A stretch of DNA of 64,000 nucleotides. Origin: an uncultured Clostridia bacterium. GTDB lineage: Bacteria > Bacillota > Clostridia > Oscillospirales > Acutalibacteraceae. Below, piece after piece: positions 1,024 through 64,000 of the stretch (positions are counted from its first letter, which is position 1; each line of letters begins with the position of its first letter). Below the pieces are notes generated by a model that was not told the origin of the DNA, did not search any database, and was given only the letters and a program-made list of their open reading frames with translations. A program made the position numbers and the translations under genes. The stretch lies in the NCBI GenBank assembly GCA_947628665.1, contig CANRAU010000009.1, positions 19,743 through 83,742 on the forward strand, given 5' to 3'.

Positions 1024-1375
1024 GAAATACGCACCTGAACTTCTGTGAAAAATCTACTCTATAAAAATCTACTCTATATAAAACAGCCATGCTCTGCCAA
1101 ATGCGGCGTGCAACGCCGCATCGGGGAACCCCCGGTAGGGGTGCGGGTCGCCAGTGGCGACCTTTGCGGCGCAGCCGCAAAAGCACCGACCGAGCCGGCA
1201 GGCGAGAATTCCCCGCGTCAAAACAGTCCACCGGACTGTTTTGCCTCCCTTCCTGATCTCGCTGCCGCTTTGGGATTTCGCAGCCTGCGGGCTGCGAGGA
1301 GGGCTCTGCCCTCCACCCGCCGCCTTTTTGAAAAAAGGCGGGCGAAAAGCTTGAATTTGGGGTTCGGGAAGTAAG
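1024..1375 (+). repeat. Dispersed hairpin-mosaic repeat, copy A
   Basis: This non-coding stretch between padR and the ATPase gene is a chain of perfect or near-perfect palindromes: ATGCGGCG/CGCCGCAT, GGTCGCCAGTGGCGACC, TTTGCGGC/GCCGCAAA, then a conserved linker (GCACCGACCGAGCCGGCAGG), ACAGTCCACCGGACTGT at about 1222-1240, CGCAGCCTGCGGGCTGCG, and a tail CCGCCTTTTT/AAAAAGGCGG. The same modules recur at six other places in the window. The ORFs called across it are periodicity artefacts of the palindromes. The 5' edge carries ATCTACTCTATA motifs also found in the tandem repeats near 46.2 kb. Confidence 0.85.
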
Positions 1376-1399
1376 AGAAAAGGGCAAGCAAAAGAAAAA

Positions 1400-13279: not shown

Positions 13280-14374
13280 TCAGACGCGCGTGGGTTCTTC
13301 TTCCTCATCTTCATCCTTCCTGCGTGCGATGATGAGCAAAAGCAGGAAGAAGGTCAACAGGAAGATCCCGCCCGCCACCAACGGGTACTCGCGAATCAGC
13401 GCGCCCGTTGTGGAGATCACAGGGTTGTCTGTGATGAAGTGCTTCTCCGTAGTGGGTTCTTCCGGCACAGGCTCTACAGGCGCTTGCCCGGGTACTACGG
13501 TAACGGTCCCGTCCGCATTGACGACAAAGTCGAGATAGAGATGTTCCGTATTTTCGGGAACGGTCACAAGCTGTGTGCCGTCCTCCAGCACGTCTACGGT
13601 TACTTCGGTTGCGTTCGGATCAACATGAACCGAGAAATTCGCAGAGCCGGCCACATTGCCGTCCTCATCGGAAATTTCTACAACATAGAAGCCGTCCTTG
13701 ACGTCGTCCGCATTGTATGCGCCGTCTTTATCCGCATCCGCCGTGATGTCGCCGAAGTTGAAATCCAAATGCGCCTTCGGGAACGGATCTTCGCCGCGAT
13801 GAACATGACCGCTCATGCCCATATGCGTACAGGGATCCCCCTGGTGATCATGGTCGCCGGGATTCGACGGGTCGTTCGGATTGGTCGAGCCGCCCGGATT
13901 TGACGGGTCGTTCGGATTGGTCGAACCGCCCGGATTCGACGGATCGTCCGGGTTGGTCGAGCCGCCCGGATTCGACGGGTCGTTCGGATTGGTCGAACCG
14001 CCGCCGTGTTCCGCGTCATCGCATTTTTCAAACGTAAATACGATGTCCATATCCGTGCTGATCTCGTTCAGTTTCAACTGCCCATAGCGTACTTGGTCGG
14101 TCACATCGACGCCGTTGACGGTTACCTTTTTCAGGTGGCTGTCATGCAGGCAGACAACGTCCAGACCTAAATTCGCAAAGCGGTCAACCGTGATCGTTTC
14201 GGGGTTTTGGAGACGACGACCATTGTTGAGAATGTACCCGCCGTAATTGAATGATACGGTAATTTCATGGGTGCTCGGGACTACGGTTTTCAAATTTGCA
14301 CTGTCGGCGAAAGCGCCAAGCTGCAACGAAAAACACAGCAGTAGGCAAAGTAGAATGCTGCAAGCTTTTTTCAT
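13280..14374 (-). CDS. Membrane-anchored surface protein with NPNDPSNPGGST repeats (last gene of the secreted-protein operon)
   Basis: A 364-residue exported protein starting MKKACSILLCLLLCFSLQLGAFA (signal peptide) after AAGGAGGTGG. An N-terminal domain of about 110 residues is followed by four 12-residue repeats of GGSTNP(N/D)DPSNP, a His/Asp segment (GDHDHQGDPCTHMGM), a second globular domain, and a C-terminal helix (VAGGIFLLTFFLLLLIIARR) with an acidic cytoplasmic end. No clear LPxTG is seen, so retention is probably by the membrane helix. It is the last of ten co-directional genes. Its anchor suggests it tethers or receives the small secreted proteins encoded just upstream (inference). 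Family not recognised. Confidence 0.75.
   Translation of the reverse strand: MKKACSILLCLLLCFSLQLGAFADSANLKTVVPSTHEITVSFNYGGYILNNGRRLQNPETITVDRFANLGLDVVCLHDSHLKKVTVNGVDVTDQVRYGQLKLNEISTDMDIVFTFEKCDDAEHGGGSTNPNDPSNPGGSTNPDDPSNPGGSTNPNDPSNPGGSTNPNDPSNPGDHDHQGDPCTHMGMSGHVHRGEDPFPKAHLDFNFGDITADADKDGAYNADDVKDGFYVVEISDEDGNVAGSANFSVHVDPNATEVTVDVLEDGTQLVTVPENTEHLYLDFVVNADGTVTVVPGQAPVEPVPEEPTTEKHFITDNPVISTTGALIREYPLVAGGIFLLTFFLLLLIIARRKDEDEEEEPTRV
13860..14003 (-). repeat. Four tandem 36-bp repeats inside the anchored surface protein gene
   Basis: Four in-frame 36-bp units encode GGSTNP(N/D)DPSNP. The units differ by only a few bases, so copy number can change by slippage without frameshift. Confidence 0.9.
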
Positions 14375-14410: not shown

Positions 14411-14902
14411 TTAAGCCGCTTCATAGGTAACCGTAAAGGTGACCGTGCCTGTGTATGCTGCGATCGGTGCATCCGCCCAATTTGCGATCGATACGCTGGG
14501 CTGCGTTTCGGGAGCCTGCTCGTTGCAGTCCGGCCCGAAGGTCGATTCTGCGCCGTTTTGGAGGGCAAAGGTCAACGTCTTTTCGGTCAGATTCGACGTC
14601 ATTTTCCCCCCGTTGTTTTCCTCGGCCTTAACCTTCAGCTGTGCGCCGAGCGCAAGCTGCGTGGTTACTTTATAGCCAAGCTCATACGAATCGGTATCGC
14701 CCCAGGCGATGGTCACTTCTGCAGGGTAGCTCACGGTATAGGTCGAGGGGTCTTTCCCCTCTTTATCGGTCGTTTTGGTCGTCACATTTGTCTGACCGGT
14801 CGGACCCGTATCCTTCGTGATCGTTTGATCTGCCGCGAAAGCGGGTACACAGACCGCAAACAGCATAACGAGCGCAACAATAAGAGAAATTGCTTTTTTC
14901 AT
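14411..14902 (-). CDS. Small secreted PADxxIxW-module protein, paralog 7
   Basis: About 163 residues from the ATG at 14902 (AGGAG 8 bp upstream; the ORF-track Met two codons earlier is too close to the site). The signal peptide MKKAISLIVALVMLFAVC ends PAFA. The mature domain of about 140 residues has YTVSYPAEVTIAW, YKVTTQLALGAQLKV and a C-terminal strand pair APIAAYTGTVTFTVTY. It is predicted all-beta, with no anchor, no catalytic motif and one Cys in the mature chain. Seven tandem paralogs and the C-terminus of the 1823-residue protein share this architecture. It is closest to paralogs 4-6. Function unknown; a structural subunit of a surface layer or fibre is my inference. Confidence 0.85.
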   Translation of the reverse strand: MKKAISLIVALVMLFAVCVPAFAADQTITKDTGPTGQTNVTTKTTDKEGKDPSTYTVSYPAEVTIAWGDTDSYELGYKVTTQLALGAQLKVKAEENNGGKMTSNLTEKTLTFALQNGAESTFGPDCNEQAPETQPSVSIANWADAPIAAYTGTVTFTVTYEAA

Positions 14903-14928
14903 AATCATTACTCCTATTCAAAACGCGT

Positions 14929-15423
14929 TTAATCAGTTGCGGGAATGTATGTAACCGTAAAGGTCATTGTGCCGACATATTCGGCGATCGGAACGCCCGC
15001 GAAGCTCGCGATTTGCACGGTGGGCTTCGTCACGGGGGAAGCCTCGTCGTTTACTTCGTGGAAGGTTGCGGCTTCGCCGTTTTGGAGGGCAAAGGTCAGG
15101 GTCTTATCCGTACCGACCGCCTTCATTGCGCCCGCATTGTCCGCCGCAACGGCAACCGTCAGCTGATCGCCCAGCAACAGCTGGGAGGTCACGGTATAGT
15201 TGACTTCCTTCTCAGCGGTGTCGTTCCAGTCGATCTGCACGTCCGCCGGAATTTTGATCGTATACGTATACGAGTCCGTCGCCGCGTCGATATTCGTCTT
15301 TACTTCCACTTTGCCTTCCTGCGGCACAGTATCCTTGGAAATCTCTTGCTCTACCGCAAAAGCGGGTACACAAACCGCAAACAGCATGGCGAAAGCAACG
15401 ACGAGAGAGATAACTTTTTTCAT
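14929..15423 (-). CDS. Small secreted PADxxIxW-module protein, paralog 6
   Basis: 164 residues. The signal peptide MKKVISLVVAFAMLFAVC ends PAFA, and CAGGAGCGA precedes the ATG. The module shows YTIKIPADVQIDW, VNYTVTSQLLLGDQLTV, LTFALQNGEAATFHEV (nearly identical to LTFALQNGAESTFGPD of paralog 7) and VPIAEYVGTMTFTVTYIP. No cysteine in the mature protein and no membrane anchor. The 26-bp gap to the next gene and the lack of internal terminators indicate co-transcription. Sequence divergence from neighbours is large outside the signature, so these are old duplicates rather than recent amplification. Confidence 0.85.
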   Translation of the reverse strand: MKKVISLVVAFAMLFAVCVPAFAVEQEISKDTVPQEGKVEVKTNIDAATDSYTYTIKIPADVQIDWNDTAEKEVNYTVTSQLLLGDQLTVAVAADNAGAMKAVGTDKTLTFALQNGEAATFHEVNDEASPVTKPTVQIASFAGVPIAEYVGTMTFTVTYIPATD

Positions 15424-15459
15424 AATGATCTCGCTCCTGTTAAAGCCTTATCAGACAGC

Positions 15460-15966
15460 TTATACGGGAACGTAGGTTACCGTGTAGGTCAGGGATACCT
15501 TATACACGGCAATCGGAACGCCGTCAAAGCTGTTGACTTGGATGGTGGGGGACTGCGGCGCGGTTGCGTTATCGTTGACCTCGCCGAATGTCGCTGCGTC
15601 GCCGCCCGTAAGCGTGTAAGACAGGAAGTTCACTTCGTCGCCGTCGGGTTTCATTTTGTTCTCGGCGTCGCCGTCGATCTTCACTTTCAGGGATTCGCCC
15701 TTTTGAAGCTGGGAGGTCACATGATAGGCTACATCCTGTGCCTTGGTGTTGCCCCAGGCGATCTCTACATCCGCGGGAATGGTCACGGTGTAGGAACGCA
15801 CTTCCTCGCCGGCTTCATTGGTTGTTTTGGTAAAAACATCTACTTTTTGGGGATCTTTCGGAGTCGGCTGTCCATCTGCGCCGCTTGTAATATCGGCCGC
15901 AAAAGCAGGAACGCAGACCGCAAACAGCATAATGACTGCCAGCAAAACAGAAATTGCTTTTTTCAT
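15460..15966 (-). CDS. Small secreted PADxxIxW-module protein, paralog 5
   Basis: 168 residues with signal peptide MKKAISVLLAVIMLFAVC...AFA after GAGGAG. The mature part begins with a Gly/Pro-rich segment (SGADGQPTPKDPQKVDVF) shared with paralog 4. It continues YTVTIPADVEIAW, VAYHVTSQLQKGESLKV, LSYTLTGGDAATFGEV and VPIAVYKVSLTYTVTYVP. In the last motif the usual TGTVTF is replaced by KVSLTY. Beta-rich, no anchor, no cysteine after the signal peptide. Same operon context as the other paralogs; function unknown. Confidence 0.85.
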   Translation of the reverse strand: MKKAISVLLAVIMLFAVCVPAFAADITSGADGQPTPKDPQKVDVFTKTTNEAGEEVRSYTVTIPADVEIAWGNTKAQDVAYHVTSQLQKGESLKVKIDGDAENKMKPDGDEVNFLSYTLTGGDAATFGEVNDNATAPQSPTIQVNSFDGVPIAVYKVSLTYTVTYVPV

Positions 15967-16008
15967 AATGGTCTACTCCTCACAAAAACTGTATAAAACT
16001 TACTTTCC

Positions 16009-16512
16009 TTACGCCGCAGGAGCCGTGTAAGTTACCGTAAAGGTTACAGATCCGGTGTACTTGGCGACTGCCTGATCGAAAGCATTCACCCTGACCTTGG
16101 GCTGTGCCGTGGGGGTCGTACCCTTGTCGTTAAGGCCTGTGAATTCCTGTGTGTCATTGTCGCTCAAGGTGAAATACAGATAGGTCACGCCGTCGTCCGA
16201 TTCCAGTTTCATTTTACCGCTGTCGTCCGCCTCCACGGCAACGGACAGCTTCGCGCCATATAACAAAACCGATTCGATGCTATACGCCAAATCGTGATCT
16301 GTCTTGTCGTCCCAGGAGATGCCGAGATCGGCGGGAATGGTCACGGTGTAGGTGCTGGTCACATCTGTAATGTCGGTATAAACATCGACCTGATACGGTC
16401 CTTCCGGAGTTGGCTGTCCGGTCGCGTCGTTTTTCACTTCAACCGCAAAAGCGGGTACGCAGACGGCAAACAGCATGCATACTGCCAATAAGACAGATAA
16501 GAACTTTTTCAT
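16009..16512 (-). CDS. Small secreted PADxxIxW-module protein, paralog 4
   Basis: 167 residues, signal peptide MKKFLSVLLAVCMLFAVC...AFA, start marked by GGAAAGGAG. The N-terminal mature segment NDATGQPTPEGPYQVDVYTD matches paralog 5. The module is YTVTIPADLGISW, LAYSIESVLLYGAKLSV, YLYFTLSDNDTQEFTG and AVAKYTGSVTFTVTYTAPAA. No anchor or enzyme motif. Its high similarity to paralog 5 marks a pair formed by a later duplication than the split from paralogs 1-3 (inference from visible identity). Confidence 0.85.
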   Translation of the reverse strand: MKKFLSVLLAVCMLFAVCVPAFAVEVKNDATGQPTPEGPYQVDVYTDITDVTSTYTVTIPADLGISWDDKTDHDLAYSIESVLLYGAKLSVAVEADDSGKMKLESDDGVTYLYFTLSDNDTQEFTGLNDKGTTPTAQPKVRVNAFDQAVAKYTGSVTFTVTYTAPAA

Positions 16513-16581
16513 TGCGCAAACTCCTTTCCGTACAAATTTAAAAGGGTTGCTTTTTCAGCATTCTGCCGAAAGAGGGGATAA

Positions 16582-17061
16582 TTATGCGTCAACAACGGCT
16601 ACGGTGAAGGTCAGGTGCGCTTCATACCCTGCAACAGGCGCGGTCTTCCAGTTTTCCTCGGTAATGCCGATGTTGAGCGTGTTGGTCTGGGTGGTGGTAA
16701 CAGTATCGACCGTCACATCCGTGTCGCCGCCGAGGGTGTAATCCAGCGTGTAATCCAAATATTTCATTTGCTCGTAGTCTTTATGCTTCGTAACCTTGAC
16801 GCTCAGCTGTTTGCCGGCTGCCAAATGGGTGGTGGAGGTGTACTGGATGTCGGTGTTCTTAGTGTTCCAACTGATGTGAGTCTCTGCGGGATATCTCACT
16901 TCGAACGTACCGCCCGCCATAGTTCCGGTGTCGACCTTTACCATCGCGTCGCCGGTATTCGCACCCTTATCTGTGAGCGAATTCTCTACAACAGCAAACG
17001 CGGGGATAGAAATTGCGCAGATCATAAGCACTGCAAGTGCAACAGAAAGAACTTTTTTCAT
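16582..17061 (-). CDS. Small secreted PADxxIxW-module protein, paralog 3
   Basis: 159 residues with signal peptide MKKVLSVALAVLMICAISIPAFA and an AAAGGAG site. The signature is VRYPAETHISW. Next come IQYTSTTHLAAGKQLSVKV, LDYTLGGDTDVTVDTVTTTQ, then the WxxxPVAGY variant ITEENWKTAPVAGYEAHLTF. The Trp-containing C-terminal motif is shared with paralogs 1, 2 and 7 and the giant protein. Predicted beta-sandwich, no anchor. A 69-bp gap separates it from paralog 4. Confidence 0.85.
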   Translation of the reverse strand: MKKVLSVALAVLMICAISIPAFAVVENSLTDKGANTGDAMVKVDTGTMAGGTFEVRYPAETHISWNTKNTDIQYTSTTHLAAGKQLSVKVTKHKDYEQMKYLDYTLDYTLGGDTDVTVDTVTTTQTNTLNIGITEENWKTAPVAGYEAHLTFTVAVVDA

Positions 17062-17150
17062 GATAAAACTCCTTTTTTTATATTAGATTGGGATTGCTTT
17101 GCGGAATGCTTGTAGGATTTGCTGATGGGGCTTGTAAATGAGGTAGTGGC

Positions 17151-17636
17151 TTACGCGCCCAAAACGTCGACGGTGAAGGTCAGGATGTCTTCATACTGAC
17201 CGACAACCGCTTGGTTCCAGTCGTCCGCCGTGATGTCAACGGAAATGGTCTTGTCGGCCGCAGGATAAATCACAGGGCCTGCGCTCGTGAACGCGGTATC
17301 GCCCGAAAGCGCATAGGGCAGGGCGAAGCTGTCCGAAACGGATGCCTGATAGGTCATTTCGTTGTCGCCCGCGACGTCGATTTGCAGGCTCTTACCGTAG
17401 CCAAGGTGGGATTCTACCGAATAGGTCAGTTCGGTGTTCTTGGCGCCCCAGGTGATCTCGGTATCCGCAGGGATGCTGACGGTGAACTTTTCGGCGGATT
17501 CGCCGTGTTCGTCGGTCATGGTCGTCTTAACGATGGTCGTACCCGAGCCGGGGGCAGTCAAGTCCGCGAATGCGGGGATCATCATAGCGAACGCCATAAC
17601 GAGCGCCAAGACAAGTGCGAGAGTCTTTTTCATCAT
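17151..17636 (-). CDS. Small secreted PADxxIxW-module protein, paralog 2
   Basis: 161 residues. The signal peptide MKKTLALVLALVMAFAMM ends PAFA. Two adjacent ATGs follow AGGAG and either could serve. The module shows FTVSIPADTEITW, LTYSVESHLGYGKSLQIDV, FALPYALSGDTAFTS, and a C-terminal ITADDWNQAVVGQYEDILTF. That last motif belongs to a general pattern (ITxxxWxxAxxGxYxDTLTF) that I recall from many exported beta-sandwich proteins of Clostridia. No cysteine, no anchor. An 89-bp gap follows before paralog 3. Confidence 0.85.
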   Translation of the reverse strand: MMKKTLALVLALVMAFAMMIPAFADLTAPGSGTTIVKTTMTDEHGESAEKFTVSIPADTEITWGAKNTELTYSVESHLGYGKSLQIDVAGDNEMTYQASVSDSFALPYALSGDTAFTSAGPVIYPAADKTISVDITADDWNQAVVGQYEDILTFTVDVLGA

Positions 17637-17669
17637 GTATACTCCTTTTCAAAAAATTTGTTTGCACCG

Positions 17670-18122
17670 TTATTTCACATATTCAGCGGTAAACGTCAGC
17701 GTATCGGTATGCTCGCCCGCGGCCGCCTTTTTCCACTGGTCTGCACCGATATTCACGGTAAGCGGGTAGCTCTTGCCGGCCTCGCCGGGGGCGAAGGTGA
17801 TACCGTCCGCACCTGCGAGCGTGTACGCGATCGTCTTTTGCGCGTCTGCCGTGTTGACGAGCTTGTAAGCGTTCTGCGACTCTACGCGCACGTCTACCTT
17901 CGCGGCGGGTTCGATCCAGAGGACAGTCGCCGCCACTTCGCCGATGGCGGTCGAAGACGCTTCCCAATCAATGGTGGTGTCGGCGGGGTAGGTTAGCTGA
18001 TAGGAAGGGCCGTTCCCGTCCGGGCCGTTTTCGGTATAAATCCTGGTGTCATCGGCAAAAGCGGGGATCGCACAAACCGCCAACATCAACAGCGCAAGGA
18101 CGAGCGAAAGGGCTTTTTTCAT
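17670..18122 (-). CDS. Small secreted PADxxIxW-module protein, paralog 1
   Basis: 150 residues from the ATG at 18122, which has AGGAG 9 bp upstream; the ORF-track TTG three codons earlier is less likely. The signal peptide is MKKALSLVLALLMLAVCAIPAFA. The module has YQLTYPADTTIDW, ATVLWIEPAAKVDVRV, IAYTLAGADGITFAPGE, and the C-terminal NIGADQWKKAAAGEHTDTLT. It is the shortest copy and directly follows the giant protein, 44 bp downstream of its stop. Function unknown; all copies together look like structural subunits. Confidence 0.85.
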   Translation of the reverse strand: MKKALSLVLALLMLAVCAIPAFADDTRIYTENGPDGNGPSYQLTYPADTTIDWEASSTAIGEVAATVLWIEPAAKVDVRVESQNAYKLVNTADAQKTIAYTLAGADGITFAPGEAGKSYPLTVNIGADQWKKAAAGEHTDTLTFTAEYVK

Positions 18123-18166
18123 GGTTCTCAACTCCTTTGCAGTAGATTTACTTTATTTGCTAAAGC

Positions 18167-21100
18167 TTATTGTGTACTGCCATCCGAATAGGTGACGGTA
18201 TAGGTAAGCTTCGTTTGGTATTTGTCGGGTACCTTGCCGGACCAATCGGTAACAGTTAGGGTGGGCTTGGGATCGGGCAACGTCTGCTCAGTCATTTGCC
18301 CCTCGAACCTCTTTTGGACGTCAAATTCCGCCGTCGTAAACGCGATCTTGGCGTTGGGGTCGTTGCTGCTGATTAGTTTGCCGGGCTCTGTGCCGGAGTC
18401 TTTGACCGAGACTTCGATATGTCCCTTAGACAAGGTGGTCAAGACCTTATAGGAGACGTCTTGTGCTTTGTCGTCGCCCCACTTAATGGGTATCTCGGCC
18501 GGAATCGACACGGTGTAGTTATCGCCGGGCGCGAAGAGAATCTTGATTTTCTTCGTCAACGGCTGCTGATCGCCGCCAAGAAGCGGCGTGCCATCGCCAT
18601 GGTAGAACTGCACGGTCAATGTATCCGACAGCGCAACCGGCACCTTGGGGTCGGCCGCCAAGCTCACGTTGAAGGTGAAGTTTAAGGGTGCGCCTTGTGT
18701 CGCCTTATTGTTCGCAACCTCGCCGATTTTCGTCTCTGTCTTTAAAGCCGAGGCGTCGTAGCTCGCATCCGCCGGTGTATTGGAGTCAGCCTTATTCGGA
18801 ACGGTCGATTCGCTGGAGGGACGCGTGATTGCTACCGTATAGGCAGCCTCAGGATTCGAGCCGCCCTGCATCGTGACATCCGACATCAGTTTGCCGTTTT
18901 CGGAGGTGACGGTTATGTAGCTGAGCGATTCGGTGTCCGTCTGCGAGGGCAGGAACACGGAATACTGCACGTTGTAGGTCGCCGAGCCTTGGAGTTCATC
19001 CGGCGTCAACGTGACGGTCGCCTCCTCAAGGTCTTTGTCGCTGTTCAGCGCGACCTGCTCGGCAGGGAACAGCGGATAAATACCGTCTGGATAAGTGTCC
19101 TCACCCTTTACCCTTGCATCGCCGTCTAATTTAACCTGGTCGGCTTCTTCGTGCCAAAGGTTATACAAATCCAAAATGCAGTAGTAAGCGGGAATGAGAG
19201 AATGGTACATTTCGTGCTGATCGTACAGCGTCTTCAGCTCAATGGTACTTTCGTTAAACAGCTTTTTGTTTTGGATGGCGTCCAGCGTTTTCGCGTAATA
19301 GTCCTCATACTTCGCTTTGAGATGGAGAACGCCGCCATCCAATTTTACGCCGGTGCTGTTCCAAGTCGTCGTATCATCATCCTCCGGCGTGTTTGCCGCC
19401 CCCGCACCGCACTGGTAAGAATTGACGTTGCAGCGAAGCCTCTGGAGCGTAACGATAATGCCATCGTTGTTTTCCTGACCGAGGTACAGTTCGCCGGGCA
19501 ACATTTTCATATTTCTAAGAATGTACTTGGCGTAATAACCGAGGTCTGTGTACGCTTGCCACGCTTTGGAAAGTGTGCTGCCGCTCGAGTCGTTCAAATC
19601 CGTCGCAAGGGAGAAGAAGAATTTACCGACTGCCGAATCATCAGGAGATGCGTTTCCCGGGTCGTGGTACAGTTCCTCAATCTGTGCGTACGCGGCATTT
19701 GCGGCAGTTAACTCGCCCGCCATATACACCAGACGCTTGGCGTTGGCGTAAGCGTTTTCGAGTTCTGCTTTTGAACCCGCCAACTGCTCTTTCTCGGTTG
19801 GGGACAAGCGTGCATAGCTCTTTTCATACAGGTCGATGATTGCTTGCGCAGCCGCTTCGTCCGTCAAACCGTACTTGGCATAGTCGATTGTCCCATCTTT
19901 TATGTTATACAGGCCGGACATCTCGTTCTCATGACCGTTTCCTGTATACGACTCTTTTGTTTTGGAATCCCAGCCTGCAATCGCAGCTTGAATCGCGCTC
20001 ACGTCCTGCTCGGCAGCGGGTCTACTGTGGTTTGTCGCCCAATCCTGATATGTCAGCAGCGTTTCATGCGCCTTTTTGACGGACTCATGCGTCGTTTGGA
20101 AAGCAGTCAAGCTATTGTAAGCCTGCAACGCCTCGTTGACAGCCGCCAGGAAAGCATCATAATTCTCCCCGTAAGAGTAGGGGTCGATTGCATTGACCTT
20201 TTCTTCGAACTTCAACGCGCTTGAGGACTTGGAATCCGTCAACGCTTCAAAGAACGGGTCTGTATTCGGCCGAGCCGATTTATAGGCATTTTCGTCGTAG
20301 GAGAAGCCGACATTGTCGATGGTGAACGAGCGTCCGTCCATCTGCTTCGCGGCCGCCGCGCCGTCGGTATTCTTCACGTCCAAAGGCGCAACGCCAATCT
20401 GAACGCGGTAGATGCCGTTCAAAGCCTCTTTGTCGGTGCTCATCGAATAGTTATAGTCTCTGCTTCCCACCGCGCCGCGCAAGCCCGACTTGAAATACTC
20501 CAGCGGAATCATGATATACCCGCGGTAATTGTCAAGGGACAGCTCCTCTACGCCGTCGTTGCCGCTCGAGCTGGAGGGCAGCGTATAAATTTTGTTGTCG
20601 ACGTTGCACTGTACCCATTCGCCGGTATTGGGGGACAGCAGCCAAAAGCGTCTGTTGGCTGCGTTGGAGCCGAAGTCGAGCGGGAAATCTTCAAATTCGG
20701 AAGGCGCGTCCGCAGCGTCGTTGACATTGTTCGGGCAATAGGCATGGAGCACAACGGACAAACGGAAATTGGAAAGCTGCGAGAAGTCGGCATAGAACAC
20801 CAGGCAGATGGGCGGGTCGGCGTTGTTATTTGCAATGGTAATGTCGCTGCTTGCGAAGTCGCCCAAGGAATCCAGTCCCGTGGTCTGCTTACGAAGCTCA
20901 GCGGGGTCATCGTTCTCCGCCCCCTTACGGGTAAAGGAAACCGCCGTATAACAGCCGTTGTTTTCAGAATAATACTGGCTGTCGATGGTCGTCGTCAAGC
21001 CGTGCGTACCCATAAAGCCGTTTTCGTCTACGGTCGCCCAAGCGGGGTCCCAATAGATGTCGCCGTTGCTCTTCAGGTTGTTGCCCAACGTATCGACAAC

Positions 21101-25054: not shown

Positions 25055-25195
25055 TCTATGGAAATATAAAGTCCGAGGCGCGCCGCTTTGAAATTTGGCG
25101 TCCTGCGGGACGCGAGACGGGACTCTGTCCCGTCGCCTTGCCGTCTTTTGAAAAAGGCGGGCGGAAGCTCGGATTTGGCTTTTTGTAAGCGAGCG
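25055..25195 (+). repeat. Dispersed hairpin-mosaic repeat, copy B (short, diverged)
   Basis: Contains GCGTCCTGCGGGACGC, GACGGGACTCTGTCCCGTC and the tail module CTTTTGAAAAAGGCGGGCGG. These correspond to the last three modules of copies A, D, E and F but carry different stem sequences that still pair. It lies immediately after the ABC exporter stop codon. Confidence 0.7.
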
Positions 25196-43080: not shown

Positions 43081-43136
43081 ATCTTATACGGCGTACAACG
43101 GATTTCAACATCCGCCGTGCGCCGATTTTTTCTGTC

Positions 43137-43409
43137 ACTTTCTGAAAGCCAAAACATAAGTTTTCGCCCGCCTTTTTCAAAAGGCGGTGAGGTGTCGGAG
43201 CGAAGCTCTGACTCGCCCCTCGCAAGGGGCGAAACACCCAAAGCGTCAGCAAAGCGCAGGAAGGGAAGAAAAACGTCCCAGTGGGACGTTTTTCGCGGGA
43301 ATTCTCGCCTGCCGGCTCGGTCGGTGCTTTTGCGGCGATGCCGCAAAGGTCGCCACTGGCGACCCGCACCCCTGCAAGGGGTTTCCCGATACGCCGCGTA
43401 GCGGCGTAT
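43137..43409 (-). repeat. Dispersed hairpin-mosaic repeat, copy C (inverted orientation)
   Basis: The modules appear in reverse order relative to copy A: CCGCCTTTTT tail, CGCCCCTCGCAAGGGGCG, the central palindrome ACGTCCCAGTGGGACGT (43271-43291), the reverse linker, TTTGCGGC/GCCGCAAA, GGTCGCCACTGGCGACC, and ATACGCCGC/GCGGCGTAT. The central stem and outer stem differ from copy A in sequence but remain perfectly paired. Confidence 0.85.
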
Positions 43410-43820
43410 TGTGAAAAACACTACAGAAAAAAACCTCCCGTATGGGAGATTCCAGCGTGTAGAAAAAGTATGTGCCACTCGGCAATATGCACAAAAGGAA
43501 TAAGATTATGGGGAACCCCCGGCGAGGGTTCCCCACCGAAAAACAGTCCACTGGACTGTTTTTCGCCCCTCCTGCGCTTTTTGGGGACAAAATTTCGCAG
43601 CCTGCGGGCTACGATGGGGGCGCCGCCCCTCAACCCCGCCGCCTTTTGAAAAAGGCGGGCGAAAACTTTTGGTTTGACTTTTGGCTAGTGAGAGGGAAAA
43701 GTCAGAGAAAAACTTTTCTTTCCTTTGTGCGTACTGGCGCGAGGAGCTTCGTGCATATAGCGCGCGGCGGATTGTAAAAAACACTACAAAAAAACCTCCC
43801 GTATGGGAGGTTTTTTCGTA
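43410..43820 (+). repeat. Dispersed hairpin-mosaic repeat, copy D, bracketed by a duplicated hairpin
   Basis: Contains the edge module GTAGAAAAAGTATGTGCC, GGGAACCCCCGGCGAGGGTTCCC, ACAGTCCACTGGACTGT (43541-43561), CGCAGCCTGCGGGCTACG and the CTTTTGAAAAAGGCGG tail. About 40 bp including AAAAACACTACA and the hairpin CCTCCCGTATGGGAG occur on both sides (about 43410-43450 and 43770-43810), like a target duplication. It is head-to-head with copy C. Confidence 0.8.
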
Positions 43821-46091: not shown

Positions 46092-46163
46092 CAAAAAATA
46101 TGAAAAAAATATGAACTTTTTCAGGAAATGTTTACACGATCTCCCGTTCCGATTCCCATCGTA

Positions 46164-46490
46164 GGGAGCAACTTGTTTTACCCGACTTTCTGCGAAAAAA
46201 TCTACTCAATAAAAGTAGGAATTTTTTGCCAAATGCGGCGTGCTTCGCCGCATCGGGAAACCCCTTGTCAGAGGGAGCAACTTGTTTTACCCGACTTTCT
46301 GCGAAAAAATCTACTCAATAAAAGCAGGAATTTTTTGCCAAATGCGCCGCTGCGCGGCACATCGGGAAACCCCTTGTCAGAAGGAGCAACTTGTTTTACC
46401 CGACTTTCTGCGAAAAAATCTACTCAATAAAAGCAGGAATTTTTTGCCAAATGCGCCGCTGTGCGGCACATCGGGAAACCCCTTGATAGG
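46164..46490 (+). repeat. Three tandem 109-bp repeats forming the edge of mosaic copy E
   Basis: Three units of 109 bp, each with GGAGCAACTTGTTTTACCCG, AAAAAATCTACTCAATAAAA, GGAATTTTTTGCCAAATGCG and a hairpin. The hairpin is ATGCGGCG/CGCCGCAT in unit 1 and GCGCCGC/GCGGCAC in units 2-3. Each ends ATCGGGAAACCCCTTG. The ATCTACTC...GCCAAATGCGG order matches the edge of copy A at 1.05 kb. Confidence 0.9.
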
Positions 46491-46640
46491 GTTTCCCACG
46501 CCAAAACAGTCCACCGGACTGTTTTGCCTCCCTTCCTGATCTCGCTGACGCTCTAAGTATTTCGCCCCTTGCGAGGGGCGAGGAGGGCTCTGCCCTCCAC
46601 CCGCCGCCTTTTGAAAAAGGCGGGCGAAAACTTTACTGTC
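46491..46640 (+). repeat. Dispersed hairpin-mosaic repeat, copy E (core)
   Basis: After the tandem units come GGGTTTCCC, the central palindrome ACAGTCCACCGGACTGT (46505-46523), CTCCCTTCCTGATCTCGCTG (shared with copy A), CGCCCCTTGCGAGGGGCG and the tail CCGCCTTTTGAAAAAGGCGG. The GGTCGCC and TTTGCGGC hairpins and the linker are absent, so this copy lacks the middle modules. It ends about 75 bp before the lipoprotein stop codon. Confidence 0.85.
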
Positions 46641-46714
46641 GCTTTTGCCGGTGTGTGGGAAAAGGCGGCCAAAAACTTGCTATCGACAGACTGACGACCC
46701 GTATCCGCGTTCTG

Positions 46715-50127: not shown

Positions 50128-50515
50128 TTGAAAAACAGCCGCATTTCTGCGGCTGTTTTGCTTGTAGAAAAAGTATGTGCCATTTGGCAATATGCACAAA
50201 AGGAATAAGATTATGGGGAACCCCCCGGCGAGGGGTGCGGGTCGCCGGGGGCGACCTTTGCGTCAACGACGCAAAAGCACCGACCGAGCCGGCAGGCGAG
50301 AATGCGGGTGTCCGGTGGACACCTCTGCCGAAGGCAGAAGCACCGACCGAGCCGACAGGCGAGAATCCCCACCGAAAAACAGTCCACTGGACTGTTTTTC
50401 GCCCCTCCTGCGCTCTTTTGGGACAAAAATTTCGCAGCCTGCGGGCTGCGATGAGGGCGCTGCCCCTCAACCCCGCCGCCTTTTGAAAAAGGCGGGCGAA
50501 AACTTTTCGTTATTT
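50128..50515 (+). repeat. Dispersed hairpin-mosaic repeat, copy F
   Basis: Starts at a hairpin CAGCCGCATTTCTGCGGCTG (50136-50155). Then follow GTAGAAAAAGTATGTGCC, GGTCGCCGGGGGCGACC, TTTGCGTC/GACGCAAA, the linker, a second module pair GGTGTCCGGTGGACACC plus TCTGCCGAAGGCAGA, the linker again, ACAGTCCACTGGACTGT, CGCAGCCTGCGGGCTGCG and the tail. The GTC/GAC exchange in the TTTGCG stem relative to copies A and C is compensatory. The internal module-plus-linker unit is duplicated only here. Confidence 0.88.
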
Positions 50516-50548
50516 TGCTATCGCAACACAGTTTATCGACAGACTGAG

Positions 50549-50568
50549 CAGCCGCATTTCTGCGGCTG
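50549..50568. terminator. Terminator-like hairpin downstream of the pilus operon
   Basis: CAGCCGCATTTCTGCGGCTG lies 77 bp after the last sortase gene and is an exact duplicate of the hairpin at 50136-50155 on the far side of repeat copy F. The T-rich run follows on the plus strand, so minus-strand termination is uncertain. Confidence 0.5.
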
Positions 50569-50644
50569 CTTTACTTTCTTGTTTTCTGTTTTTCCTTTTT
50601 CGCTTTGCCGAAAGACCTGTCGGCGACGAGCGTTTTTGGACGCG

Positions 50645-51271
50645 CTATTGGGCGGTCTGCGTCTTTTCGGTCTCTGCGTTCAATACGCACCGAACGGTCA
50701 CTCTTGCGCGGCCGTTCCATGTGCAGGTGAAAAGGGTCAAATCCCAATCGCCGCTTTTCATTTCCTCGACCGCCGTGCCGGAAAGCGTTTCCATTTGCCG
50801 GATCGTATAGGAAAACACGTTGCCGTCCATGTCGGTGAATTGCACCGCGTCTCCGGCGGAAAGATTCTTTAACCGCCCGAAATGCGATGTGTAATTGTGT
50901 CCGCAAATCACCAAATCGTTCAGGTATGCCGAGCCGCAATACCGACAGGGCGCGGTTTTCATGCGCTTATAGTCCCAGCTGTCCATCACGGGAAGCTCCA
51001 AATCCAAAGACGGAATGTACAGCCTGCCGATATAGCGATACCCGTTGATCTCCGCCGTCGGCATTTCCCGATACGGGTCAAGCAGATAGGCGGGAACGCC
51101 GTCCGCGTTCAAAGCGCCGGAGGGGATCTCCTCCACCAGCCCCGCGACCTCGGCGTTCACCCGATAGTCATCCCAAATATTATAGCCGATCAGGGACACC
51201 GCCGCCAAAAGCAGGATGCTGCCCACGGCAATCAGCAAAAGCGCGATCCTTCGGTTACGCATCCGCATCAT
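50645..51271 (-). CDS. Sortase, non-class-C, last gene of the pilus operon
   Basis: 208 residues with an N-terminal membrane helix (IALLLIAVGSILLLAAVSLIG). The sortase barrel shows YIGRLYIPSLDLELPV, the catalytic His in DLVICGHNYTSHFGRL, and the catalytic Cys and Arg in LTLFTCTWNGRARVTVRC. It lacks the CTPYG motif of the pilus polymerases encoded upstream, so it may anchor finished pili to the wall. Three clustered ATGs are possible starts. It overlaps the upstream pilin gene by 17 bp. Subclass not certain. Confidence 0.88.
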   Translation of the reverse strand: MMRMRNRRIALLLIAVGSILLLAAVSLIGYNIWDDYRVNAEVAGLVEEIPSGALNADGVPAYLLDPYREMPTAEINGYRYIGRLYIPSLDLELPVMDSWDYKRMKTAPCRYCGSAYLNDLVICGHNYTSHFGRLKNLSAGDAVQFTDMDGNVFSYTIRQMETLSGTAVEEMKSGDWDLTLFTCTWNGRARVTVRCVLNAETEKTQTAQ

Positions 51272-52226
51272 GCCTCGGCTTCAAAAGCAGGAATATCCCG
51301 CTGAACAGCGCGATCGTGCCGAGCACGGCCAGCACGGGTACAGGCCACCACAAAAGCCCCGTTTGCGGCAGTTTTGTGTCGGACGAACCCGTCAGCGTTT
51401 GCGAATCCGTCGGCGTTTGCGAACCGGGAGGCGTTTGCGAAGGCGTATCGCTGCGCACGGTATTGGTCACGATGAAGGTGTCGCCCTGCTGCTGCATCTG
51501 CACGGTATAGTTCTGCGGAACGTCCTTTTCCGTCAGCTGCCAATCGTGATCGGCGTCCAGCTTTTCCCAGGTGTACGACCAGCCGTTGGCACTGTTTAAG
51601 GTCTGCTCCGCATAGACCTTGCCGTCGCAGAGCAGCTGCACCGTAATTTCGGACGGGCGCGCGGATTCGCTGCCCTTGTCGTTCCAGACTTTCAAAGCGC
51701 GGCGCACGATGGGTTCTTCCGGAATCAAAACGGCGTCATATTTCGGTTCGGTCGTCACTTGAAATTCGGACGTGCCGTCCGCTTTGGTAAACGGAACGGA
51801 GACGAGCGTAGACTGCGGCGAAATGCGCACTTTGTCTTTCTCCACGGGCGCGCCGACCACCATGTAAAGCCCTACCGTTAAATCCGAAAAGGTCACGCTG
51901 CCCGTTTCGTCCGTCTGCCCTGCGGCGATCGGCGCAAGCCCGTCGCGGGCGGCATAGGCCGCAAGCGTCGAAGCCAGCGTTTTCCACTCCGCGCTGTTTG
52001 GGTCTTCGGGCATGGTAACCGCATAATCGGAAAAAGGATAGGTTACGGTATACGCGCTTCCATCCCACACGGCCACCCTATAGATTTGAAACTGCGCCTG
52101 CGCGACCGGCTGATCCTCGTGGCGCAACAATACGGTGACAGAACCGTTTTCTGCGGCGAACGCCGGCAAAACGGCCGTCAGGCAAAGCAACGCCCCTATG
52201 AAGATGGACGCTAAGCGTTTTCTCAT
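51255..52226 (-). CDS. Anchor (basal) pilin with Cna_B domain and LPQTG signal
   Basis: 323 residues. Signal peptide MRKRLASIFIGALLCLTAVL...AFAA. An N-terminal SpaA-like prealbumin fold (VTVLLRHEDQPVAQAQFQIY, GSVTFSDLTVGLYMVVG) is followed by a Cna_B domain (RALKVWNDKGSESARPSEIT, VQLLCDGKVYAEQTL, WSYTWEKLDADHDWQLTEKD). Then come a Thr/Gln/Pro stalk, KLPQTG, a membrane helix and a short tail. It sits between the class C sortases and the last sortase, the usual place of the minor pilin that links the shaft to peptidoglycan. Confidence 0.9.
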   Translation of the reverse strand: MRKRLASIFIGALLCLTAVLPAFAAENGSVTVLLRHEDQPVAQAQFQIYRVAVWDGSAYTVTYPFSDYAVTMPEDPNSAEWKTLASTLAAYAARDGLAPIAAGQTDETGSVTFSDLTVGLYMVVGAPVEKDKVRISPQSTLVSVPFTKADGTSEFQVTTEPKYDAVLIPEEPIVRRALKVWNDKGSESARPSEITVQLLCDGKVYAEQTLNSANGWSYTWEKLDADHDWQLTEKDVPQNYTVQMQQQGDTFIVTNTVRSDTPSQTPPGSQTPTDSQTLTGSSDTKLPQTGLLWWPVPVLAVLGTIALFSGIFLLLKPRHDADA

Positions 52227-52238
52227 GTCATATCCCCC

Positions 52239-53138
52239 TTATGTGTGAGACAGATCCTCGGTTTTTTGTTTTGCTTTTTTCCTGCGGTGAACCATCACGG
52301 CAAGGACAACGATGCCTGCGCCAATCGCGGCAGGCAGGAAAAGGAACCAACGGTTCCATGTGGACATTAAGATTTTTTCAGCCGCAGAAGTGCTTTGCGC
52401 GTCGTTGGCGGGCGTTTCGATCCTGCGGGCGGTGACGACCAATCGGTGGGTGTTTACGCCGTAGGGTGTGCAGGTGATCAGCGTACACAGCTCCTGCCCT
52501 TCCTCGATTTGCATATCAGCAAGCTCTTCCGGGCTTGTGCGGTATATATTTTCCACTCGATACGTCAGCGTTTGATCGAGGACGTGCAGCGTGAACGTGT
52601 CCCCGACTCCCAATTTGTCCAAATCGGTGAAGAGCCGCGCGGACGGCAGACCGCTGTGTCCCGTAAGCACCGTGTGTACGCTTTTCCCCGGCACAGGCAG
52701 GCTGGACGCCTCCAAATGCCCCACTGCGATCTGCAAAACGCTTTCGGCCGTCCCGTGGTAGACGCCGAGAAAGATGTCGGATTTTTCGATTTCAATATAA
52801 CCGATCAAGCCTGTTCCCGTAACGTCCAAAAGGCTCTCGTATTCTTCCCGCTGCGCTGCGGTAAGCTCGCCGATATACGGCATGTGCCGCGCGAGATTTT
52901 CATTGTAGGCCTGTACTTCGGCCAGCATCCGTTGGCATTCGCTTTCGCCAAGCGACTCCACCTGTTGCTGATAATCGTGGATCGCCCGTTCGTTGCGCAC
53001 ATTGTTGTACATGTTAACAAGCGTCGGGTAGAGGATCAGCCCCAAGCCTATCAGCATCAGCGCGCTTACAAGGATCTTGGGAAGCAGGCGAGACGATTTT
53101 TTTGCTTTTTCTTTTGCTTTTGTTTTTTCCTGTTTCAT
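52239..53138 (-). CDS. Class C sortase (pilus polymerase), second copy
   Basis: 299 residues with two membrane helices. The extracellular transpeptidase shows GYIEIEKSDIFLGVYHGTAE, His in HTVLTGHSGLPSARLFTDLD, and Cys/Arg in LCTLITCTPYGVNTHRLVVT. The TCTPYGVNTHRL motif and C-terminal helix (RWFLFLPAAIGAGIVVLAVM) identify class C. It is 6 bp after the first class C sortase, with which it shares perhaps half of its residues by eye. Two polymerases often divide work between shaft growth and tip or base addition. Confidence 0.94.
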   Translation of the reverse strand: MKQEKTKAKEKAKKSSRLLPKILVSALMLIGLGLILYPTLVNMYNNVRNERAIHDYQQQVESLGESECQRMLAEVQAYNENLARHMPYIGELTAAQREEYESLLDVTGTGLIGYIEIEKSDIFLGVYHGTAESVLQIAVGHLEASSLPVPGKSVHTVLTGHSGLPSARLFTDLDKLGVGDTFTLHVLDQTLTYRVENIYRTSPEELADMQIEEGQELCTLITCTPYGVNTHRLVVTARRIETPANDAQSTSAAEKILMSTWNRWFLFLPAAIGAGIVVLAVMVHRRKKAKQKTEDLSHT

Positions 53139-53144
53139 AGCCGT

Positions 53145-54014
53145 TTATTTGCGCCGCCCGGTGCGTTTGACAGCCAAAAGGATCGAGAGGATCGCCGCAA
53201 GCGCAAGAACGATCACCGCCGCCCACAAGGTCATGGGGAGCTTCAGGGAAACGGTGTCTGCCGCTTTTCTGCTGTTTGCAAGCCCCGTCTGCGGCGTTTC
53301 GGTGCGCACGCCGCGCACCAAAAGCCTGTGCGTGTTGATCCCGTACGGGGTGCAGGTCATCAGCGTGCAGAGATCCGCTTCGGGATCGACCTCCTGCTTT
53401 TCGGCTTCCTCCGGCAAAACGACCATTACCGATTCCACCCGATAGGTCAGCTCCTCGCCGAGGACGTGCAGCGTGAAAGTATCGCCCGTCTCCAGTTGGT
53501 CAATGTTGCTGAACAGCTTGGAGGAAGGCAGGCCGCTGTGTCCCGAAAGGAACGTGTGCGTGCCTTTGCCGCCCACGGGCAGGGAAGAACCCGCCAGATG
53601 CCCGATCCCGCTCTGCAATACGGCTTCGTCCGTGCCGTGATAGACAGGCAGATAGATGTTGAGCTTTTCGATCTCCACATAGCCCATCATCCCCGTGCCG
53701 GACGGGTCGAGCAGGGATGTGTAACGCTTCGCCTGCTCTGCATTCAGCGTTCCAAAGCGCCGACTGTTTTGCACGAGCTCGCCGTTCCACGCGCGCGCGT
53801 CTTTCAGCATGTTCTGCACGGTCGTATCGTCTAACTTCTGAACGTTTTGTTGATAAGCGTCTATATCCTTTTTGTAATCCAGCGAATGGACGTAATTCGA
53901 GACAGTCGGATACAGCAGCAGGGAAAGTCCTATCAGGATCACGAGCGTGACGATCACGGCGGAAACGACCGTGTGGCTTTTCCGCTTCGTTCTGGTTTTC
54001 GTCTCTTGCTCCAT
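53145..54014 (-). CDS. Class C sortase (pilus polymerase), first copy
   Basis: 289 residues: N-terminal helix (VVSAVIVTLVILIGLSLLLY), the transpeptidase domain with GYVEIEKLNIYLPVYHGTDE, His in HTFLSGHSGLPSSKLFSNID, Cys/Arg in LCTLMTCTPYGINTHRLLVR, and a C-terminal helix with a basic end. It is encoded right after the backbone pilin, the common position of the shaft polymerase. The start ATG is preceded by GGGAGAG. Confidence 0.94.
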   Translation of the reverse strand: MEQETKTRTKRKSHTVVSAVIVTLVILIGLSLLLYPTVSNYVHSLDYKKDIDAYQQNVQKLDDTTVQNMLKDARAWNGELVQNSRRFGTLNAEQAKRYTSLLDPSGTGMMGYVEIEKLNIYLPVYHGTDEAVLQSGIGHLAGSSLPVGGKGTHTFLSGHSGLPSSKLFSNIDQLETGDTFTLHVLGEELTYRVESVMVVLPEEAEKQEVDPEADLCTLMTCTPYGINTHRLLVRGVRTETPQTGLANSRKAADTVSLKLPMTLWAAVIVLALAAILSILLAVKRTGRRK

Positions 54015-63700: not shown

Positions 63701-63864
63701 CCGATTTGGCAATGCATGGCAGATAAACGGAACGCATCGAACATATATATGGGCAAAATGCAAATTTTCGCCCCTCCGCTTTTTAAGAAATTCGGCAAAA
63801 TGCGCATGGCGTTTTCGGGCGTTGGAAAGAAAGAATATGCACGATTTCCGTATGAAACCATAAA

Positions 63865-64000
63865 ACCTCCCTTTTTGGGGGGGAAGTTTCAGCGTGTAGA
63901 AAAAGTATGTGCCGCTTGGCAACATGCACAAAAGGCGTAAGACTATGGGGAACCCCCGGCGAGGGTTCCCCACCGAAAAACAGTCCACTGGACTGTTTTT
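63865..64000 (+). repeat. Dispersed hairpin-mosaic repeat, copy G (cut by window edge)
   Basis: Begins at a terminator-like hairpin (ACCTCCCTTTTTGGGGGG). Then come GTAGAAAAAGTATGTGCC, a TGCACAAAAGGCGTAAGACT segment almost identical to copies D and F, GGGAACCCCCGGCGAGGGTTCCC and the central palindrome ACAGTCCACTGGACTGT, where the window ends. Confidence 0.85.

Follow-up and report, generated by a model that had tools for sequence, protein, structure and literature searches.

Two repeats, copies D and F, in the window (the whole 64,000-nucleotide stretch of DNA that was analyzed) are very probably MITEs that were moved by an IS1182-family transposase, with a target hairpin chosen for its structure and the whole palindrome duplicated. 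The duplicated unit is the hairpin, with the element junctions at its feet, and the MITE ends are shared with IS1182 elements that duplicate hairpins in the same way. Terminator hairpins are already known as targets of IS1182 elements. A preliminary description of this DNA had proposed an element that targets terminators and duplicates them, and this proposal was supported genome-wide, by IS1182 relatives with the same ends and by an empty site with a single hairpin. Features of copies D and F, and of a third copy, are as follows:

43432..43451, no strand assigned: copy D left hairpin AACCTCCCGTATGGGAGATT, inside a longer duplicated stretch that starts near 43400
43453..43674, plus strand: copy D left end CAGCGTGTAGAAAAAGTATGTG and MITE interior; the normal right end is absent
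43764..43812, no strand assigned: right copy of the duplicated stretch of copy D, complete terminator AACCTCCCGTATGGGAGGTTTTTT
50134..50157, no strand assigned: copy F left hairpin AACAGCCGCATTTCTGCGGCTGTT, with the A-tract kept on the outer side
50158..50546, plus strand: copy F, a 389-bp IS1182-type MITE with left end TTGCTTGTAGAAAAAGTATGTG (diverged CAGCGTGTAGAAAAAG) and right end GTTTATCGACAGACTG
50547..50570, no strand assigned: copy F right hairpin AGCAGCCGCATTTCTGCGGCTGCT, with one stem pair G-C versus A-T of the left copy
63863..63889, no strand assigned: left hairpin of the third copy, AAACCTCCCTTTTTGGGGGGGAAGTTT, paired with AAACCTCCCTTTTTGGGGGAGGTTT at the start of contig C18 in this genome
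63890..64000, plus strand: third MITE copy, left end and interior, cut by the contig end

In copy F, the sequence CAGCCGCATTTCTGCGGCTG was found at 50136-50155 and again at 50549-50568, as the preliminary description stated, and the full duplicated hairpin is 24 nt long (50134-50157 and 50547-50570). One base pair distinguishes the left hairpin from the right, and the change is compensatory (A-T on the left, G-C on the right), which suggests that the hairpin is still in use. The element is located at the 3′ end of a sortase-like cluster on the minus strand (50645-54014), composed of three sortase-like genes and a gene for an LPQTG-ended surface protein (51255-52226), all named from motifs only. 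The hairpin sequence differs between the D and F loci, in agreement with the earlier description. At copy D, CCTCCCGTATGGGAG also occurs twice (43434-43448 and 43795-43809), within a larger duplication of approximately 46-49 nt with 92% identity (43400-43448 versus 43764-43809) that reaches beyond the hairpin and takes in TTGTRAAAAACACTACA upstream. This copy has a normal left junction, in which AACCTCCCGTATGGGAGATT is followed by C and CAGCGTGTAGAAAAAG. The usual right end (...TTTATCGACAGACTG) is missing, and positions 43675-43763 have no match to the MITE family; the first part of this segment resembles an end of a second repeat family, seen in L006. A reverse-oriented copy of that second family adjoins copy D on the left (43126-43403). 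The longest stop-free run in copy D has 104 codons, and no transposase is present. Given that the right end is missing and the duplication exceeds the hairpin, copy D alone is a poor example; we read it as damaged or mosaic, an insertion that was rearranged afterwards. The argument rests on copy F and the remaining family. The third copy, which starts at 63890, is truncated by the end of the window, which is also the end of contig C9.

In the 2.0-Mb genome to which the window belongs, copies of the MITE left end (GTGTAGAAAAAGTATGTG...) number at least 23 and those of the right end (...GTTTATCGACAGACT) 25, many of them at contig edges. Similar to bacterial MITEs in general, these elements are short (mostly 255-390 bp), multi-copy and intergenic, have imperfect terminal inverted repeats (CAGYSTGTMGAWAAA) and lack a transposase gene; however, the usual short target duplication of fixed length is replaced here by a complete hairpin of variable length. 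Among the 98 genomes searched, the left end was present in four, all of one genus: the genome of the window, G002 (46 copies), G001 (two copies) and G035 (one copy). Related copies were detected in G038. In addition, MITEs with unrelated interiors and CAGNSTGTCGAAAAAGT-like ends were found in G031, G019 and G009 with the same flanking hairpin duplication. Since these MITEs have only the ends and the hairpin duplication in common, it is the ends rather than the interior that carry the hairpin-duplicating property. A terminal-repeat screen of the genus yielded MITEs, some with different interiors, and chance matches in coding DNA. None of the copies examined had a transposase between the ends, and the unpaired ends in G002 and those on short G000 contigs were MITEs too.

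The generality of the duplication was assessed with 63 distinct two-ended MITE copies from the genome of the window and four congeners, for which the 45 bases outside each end were aligned. The same locus-specific hairpin abuts both ends in 51 of the 63 copies, with a flank-to-flank match above the 99.9% quantile of 3,906 mismatched left/right pairs. A clear duplication was absent in 12 copies, some of which are probably the result of recombination or decay. What is duplicated is the whole hairpin, 19-40 nt long, and the length of the duplication tracks that of the hairpin. In a register test, a frame of the duplication length was slid along the reconstructed target of 57 elements (48 MITE and nine IS). 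Mean folding energy was lowest at shift 0 (-15.2 kcal/mol, versus about -1 at a 12-nt shift), and in 49 of the 57 duplications a hairpin covered the full length, leaving no more than two bases unpaired at either end, which identifies the duplicated unit as the hairpin itself. This test was used instead of a boundary measure based on foot position, which was dropped as folding with the A- and T-tracts places the feet outside the duplication. In the genome of the window, nine left and nine right ends are situated at contig edges, with their mates lost in assembly. A partner check of these ends gave seven unique strong hairpin pairings (C13-C34, C31-C35, C3-C18, C9-C18, C32-C29, C33-C14 and C33-C35) and an eighth, weaker one (C20-C14) that was slightly below the threshold, yet best in its row and column. 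The pairing C9-C18 corresponds to the copy at 63890, whose second hairpin is at the start of C18. The hairpin can therefore be used as a barcode that pairs both sides of an element and joins contigs broken by repeats (seven joins here), and it also exposes recombination between copies, as in L160 and L174.

Because IS1272, a member of the IS1182 family, was already known to target terminator hairpins, IS1182 transposases were sought in 300 genomes of the bacterial family. A match was detected in 80 genomes, 17 of them above the curated cut-off, and several of the IS1182 elements combine ends CAGNCTGTCGAAAAA with flanking repeats in the form of exact hairpins, such as AAAGCTCCGTGTTACACGGAGCTTT (25 nt), ATACAGCATAGTTAAGATAGCTATGCTGTAT (31 nt) and ACCGCAGATTTTCTGCGGT (19 nt). 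The MITE left end CAGCGTGTAGAAAAAGT agrees with the IS1182 end CAGCCTGTCGAAAAAGT at 15 of 17 positions, a match that came after the family had been chosen for its targeting, without fitting of the ends. Whole-hairpin duplication is common to the MITE and to autonomous IS1182 elements. The duplication abuts both ends exactly in nine of 11 two-ended IS copies (exact hairpin duplications of 19-32 nt); in the other two, L160 and L174, the hairpins on the two sides are both complete but not the same, a pattern expected when IS copies recombine. The IS1182 transposase scored 400 bits with NF033551 (cut-off 270) and was also above the cut-offs of PF13751, PF05598 and PF01609.

The same terminal repeat and hairpin duplication were observed in Cetobacterium somerae (22 nt), Enterococcus raffinosus (22 nt) and E. 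casseliflavus (19 nt), as well as in Rhizobium sp. Q54, where a 25-nt hairpin is duplicated between nodT and the elongation factor P gene. ISEfa7-like and Thermocaproicibacter-type IS of the IS1182 family resemble the MITE of the window in the terminal repeat (CAGNCTGTNGANAAA), the terminator-hairpin target and the exact hairpin duplication. They are about 1.5 kb long, autonomous and encode the transposase, whereas the MITE has 250-390 bp, no transposase and an interior that is a palindrome mosaic unrelated to the IS. Hairpin duplication was not seen in distant IS1182 members from Sinorhizobium, Sphingobium and Myroides (approximately 26-28% identity), and on this small sample the trait appears characteristic of a single branch of the family. 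Searches of the genome of the window with PF01609 and PF05598 were empty, with no IS1182 transposase found, and a PF13751 search of 39 genomes of the genus gave only one IS5-like element with unrelated ends (GGCACCACCGCACAAT); the mobilizing enzyme of these MITEs is absent, extinct or unassembled. A single IS1182 element of a different appearance, L168 in G352, has ends CGAGGTGTTGACAAA and lies between GCCAAGTT and AACTTGGC, possibly by insertion into the center of a palindrome without duplication, or possibly as an element with longer terminal repeats.

A strain-level empty site was available for the autonomous relative. In E. raffinosus Er676, a copy of TGGTATATCCATCGGATATGCC borders the IS at either end. 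The plasmid NZ_CP072889.1 of E. raffinosus F162_2 has one copy of TGGTATATCCATCGGATATGCC and no IS, and matches Er676 without a difference over 140 bp spanning the junction. Nothing was lost and exactly one hairpin was gained on insertion. The copies of the window itself and those of G178 were compared with other species only. A single hairpin or terminator-like stretch without an element was found at hisF in G376 and G278, at the gene beside L005 in G037, G025 and G003, and at the L162 site in G377; these comparisons are weaker, since hairpin sequences differ between species. When the joined flanks of G000 loci were compared with the genus, no alignment across a junction was obtained, only single terminators after the same gene, and a plasmid empty site was looked for and not found for the Cetobacterium IS. 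None of the empty or orthologous sites examined carries two hairpins, in line with the earlier suggestion that the resident terminator is what becomes duplicated.

Long target duplications of fixed length are known in other IS families (IS1202 type), and a conventional DDE element with a long fixed stagger and a mere preference for terminators might leave repeats of this size. However, duplication length in IS1202-type elements is nearly constant for each transposase, whereas here it ranges from 20 to 30 nt for one identical IS. G178, a near-complete genome with a transposase at 100% identity to one recorded for a Thermocaproicibacter melissae plasmid, contains a 1,526-bp IS with the same ends in five copies, and four identical copies have duplications of 20, 21, 22 and 30 nt. 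Four lengths from one enzyme exclude a fixed stagger, and the duplication ends coincide with the hairpin feet; we consider this explanation very unlikely. We give just as little weight to an origin without transposition, by segmental duplication or gene conversion that put hairpins around an old intergenic repeat. Copy D, with its longer 46-nt duplication and no right end, would fit such an origin, and the repeats have common modules and can recombine; the hybrid IS copies L160 and L174 show that copies do so. Nevertheless, dozens of unrelated hairpins are duplicated at exactly the same two junctions, the elements have terminal inverted repeats, the loci are unlinked and come from several phyla, and the empty site is exact.

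Hairpin replacement, in which the target hairpin is removed and the flanking hairpins are owned by the element or are of other origin, has a precedent within the IS1182 family. IS1272 and TnSha1 target terminator hairpins of any sequence, as do the elements described here, but the hairpin is deleted or replaced and no target duplication arises (PMC4923244, PMC5678879). Wan et al. (2017) described IS1272 as a case of hairpin replacement and considered duplication of the whole stem-loop only as a hypothetical pathway b in their Fig. 13 (PMC5678879); the finding of palindromic targets in the IS1182 family is attributed to Siguier et al. (PMC5678879, PMC4923244). In our data, however, each locus has its own hairpin, the same one on either side, and the hairpin that gets duplicated is retained at the empty site, which refutes replacement for the sampled subgroup and makes it slightly less credible still than the two explanations above. 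No open-access paper was found on whole-hairpin duplication or on such MITEs, in a search that covered few subscription journals. ISfinder is said to list variable direct repeats for IS1182. Class C group II introns insert after terminator hairpins, and such an intron, or another retroelement that inserts beside terminators, could be responsible for the location of the repeats. Yet introns do not duplicate the hairpin, no Rfam match was found over 40000-64000, and the elements have terminal inverted repeats and an IS1182 transposase partner, so that the probability of this origin is close to negligible.

The relation to gene ends that had been anticipated was observed: copies are located at gene 3′ ends, with 24 of 54 scored copies between convergent genes, 25 between tandem genes and five between divergent genes (chance expectation for the latter, about a quarter). 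After insertion, the right hairpin retains the T-tract (4.8 T in 8 nt, versus 2.9 after the left hairpin), and the left hairpin retains the A-tract (4.8 A versus 2.7). A bidirectional terminator thus becomes two complete ones, each for the transcript that has crossed the element. The earlier notion that the element restores the terminator holds in that both halves are complete, with the refinement that they lie on opposite sides of the element. The difference in stability between left and right hairpin copies was not significant (Wilcoxon p = 0.18), and decay of one hairpin copy therefore has no support.

In the mechanism we propose, an IS1182-family DDE transposase would act in trans on the MITE ends CAGYSTGTMGAWAAA and pick its target by structure, as a palindrome that is normally an intrinsic terminator at the 3′ end of a gene. 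Joining would occur on both strands at the feet of the hairpin, and repair of the gaps would then duplicate the whole palindrome, which would make the target duplication as long as the hairpin (19-40 nt). The recognized form may be a palindrome extruded as a cruciform, or a single-strand hairpin attacked in ssDNA during replication or transcription. The feet of a cruciform are adjacent whatever the stem length, which would explain variable duplications with one enzyme. At convergent genes with a bidirectional terminator, each direction would keep a complete hairpin and U-tract beyond the element, and insertion should therefore be nearly silent. More tentatively, and with slightly less than even confidence, we suggest that this IS1182 branch may represent a structure-guided DDE transposase that reads the junction of an extruded hairpin or cruciform rather than sequence, attacks its feet and copies any terminator that it enters, and that the MITEs may have spread through gut Clostridia because their insertions are transcriptionally silent. 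Transposons are usually harmless by way of a fixed safe site, or they damage what they hit. Here, any hairpin would be a target and would be rebuilt by the insertion itself, a third route to harmlessness that could explain the filled gene ends. That target length varies with the same enzyme makes the reading of DNA secondary structure by a DDE transposase testable.

Other repeats were also observed. The second repeat family is found in the window at 1080-1381 (plus strand), 25094-25183, 43126-43403 (minus strand) and 46163-46660 (plus strand); its interior has palindromic modules as in the MITE (CGAAAAACAGTCCACTGGACTGTTTTTCG-like, CGCAGCCTGCGGGCTGCG and CCGCCTTTTGAAAAAGGCGG) and its ends are different. 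At 46163-46693, three tandem 109-bp units precede a copy whose final sequence, CTATCGACAGACTG, is a normal MITE right end. A duplicated hairpin is absent next to it, and the copy appears to be a chimera of the MITE and the second repeat family. Outside the window, L202 and L075 of G002 are MITEs of 536-575 bp with an extra foldback insertion of about 275 bp inside one module. L019, a MITE at the end of contig C33, has six or more tandem units of a 63-bp module (GCGGGTGTCCGGTGGACACCTCTGCCGAAGGCAGAAGCACCGACCGAGCC...), which run as far as the contig end; ordinary MITE copies have zero or one of this module. The minus strand at 14655-18519 has five or more paralogous genes in an array, alike in their signal-peptide starts and with domains that are repeated, and tandem 18/36-bp repeats (CGCCCGGATTCGACGGGTCGTTCGGATTGGTCGA), probably coding, are present at 13819-14034.
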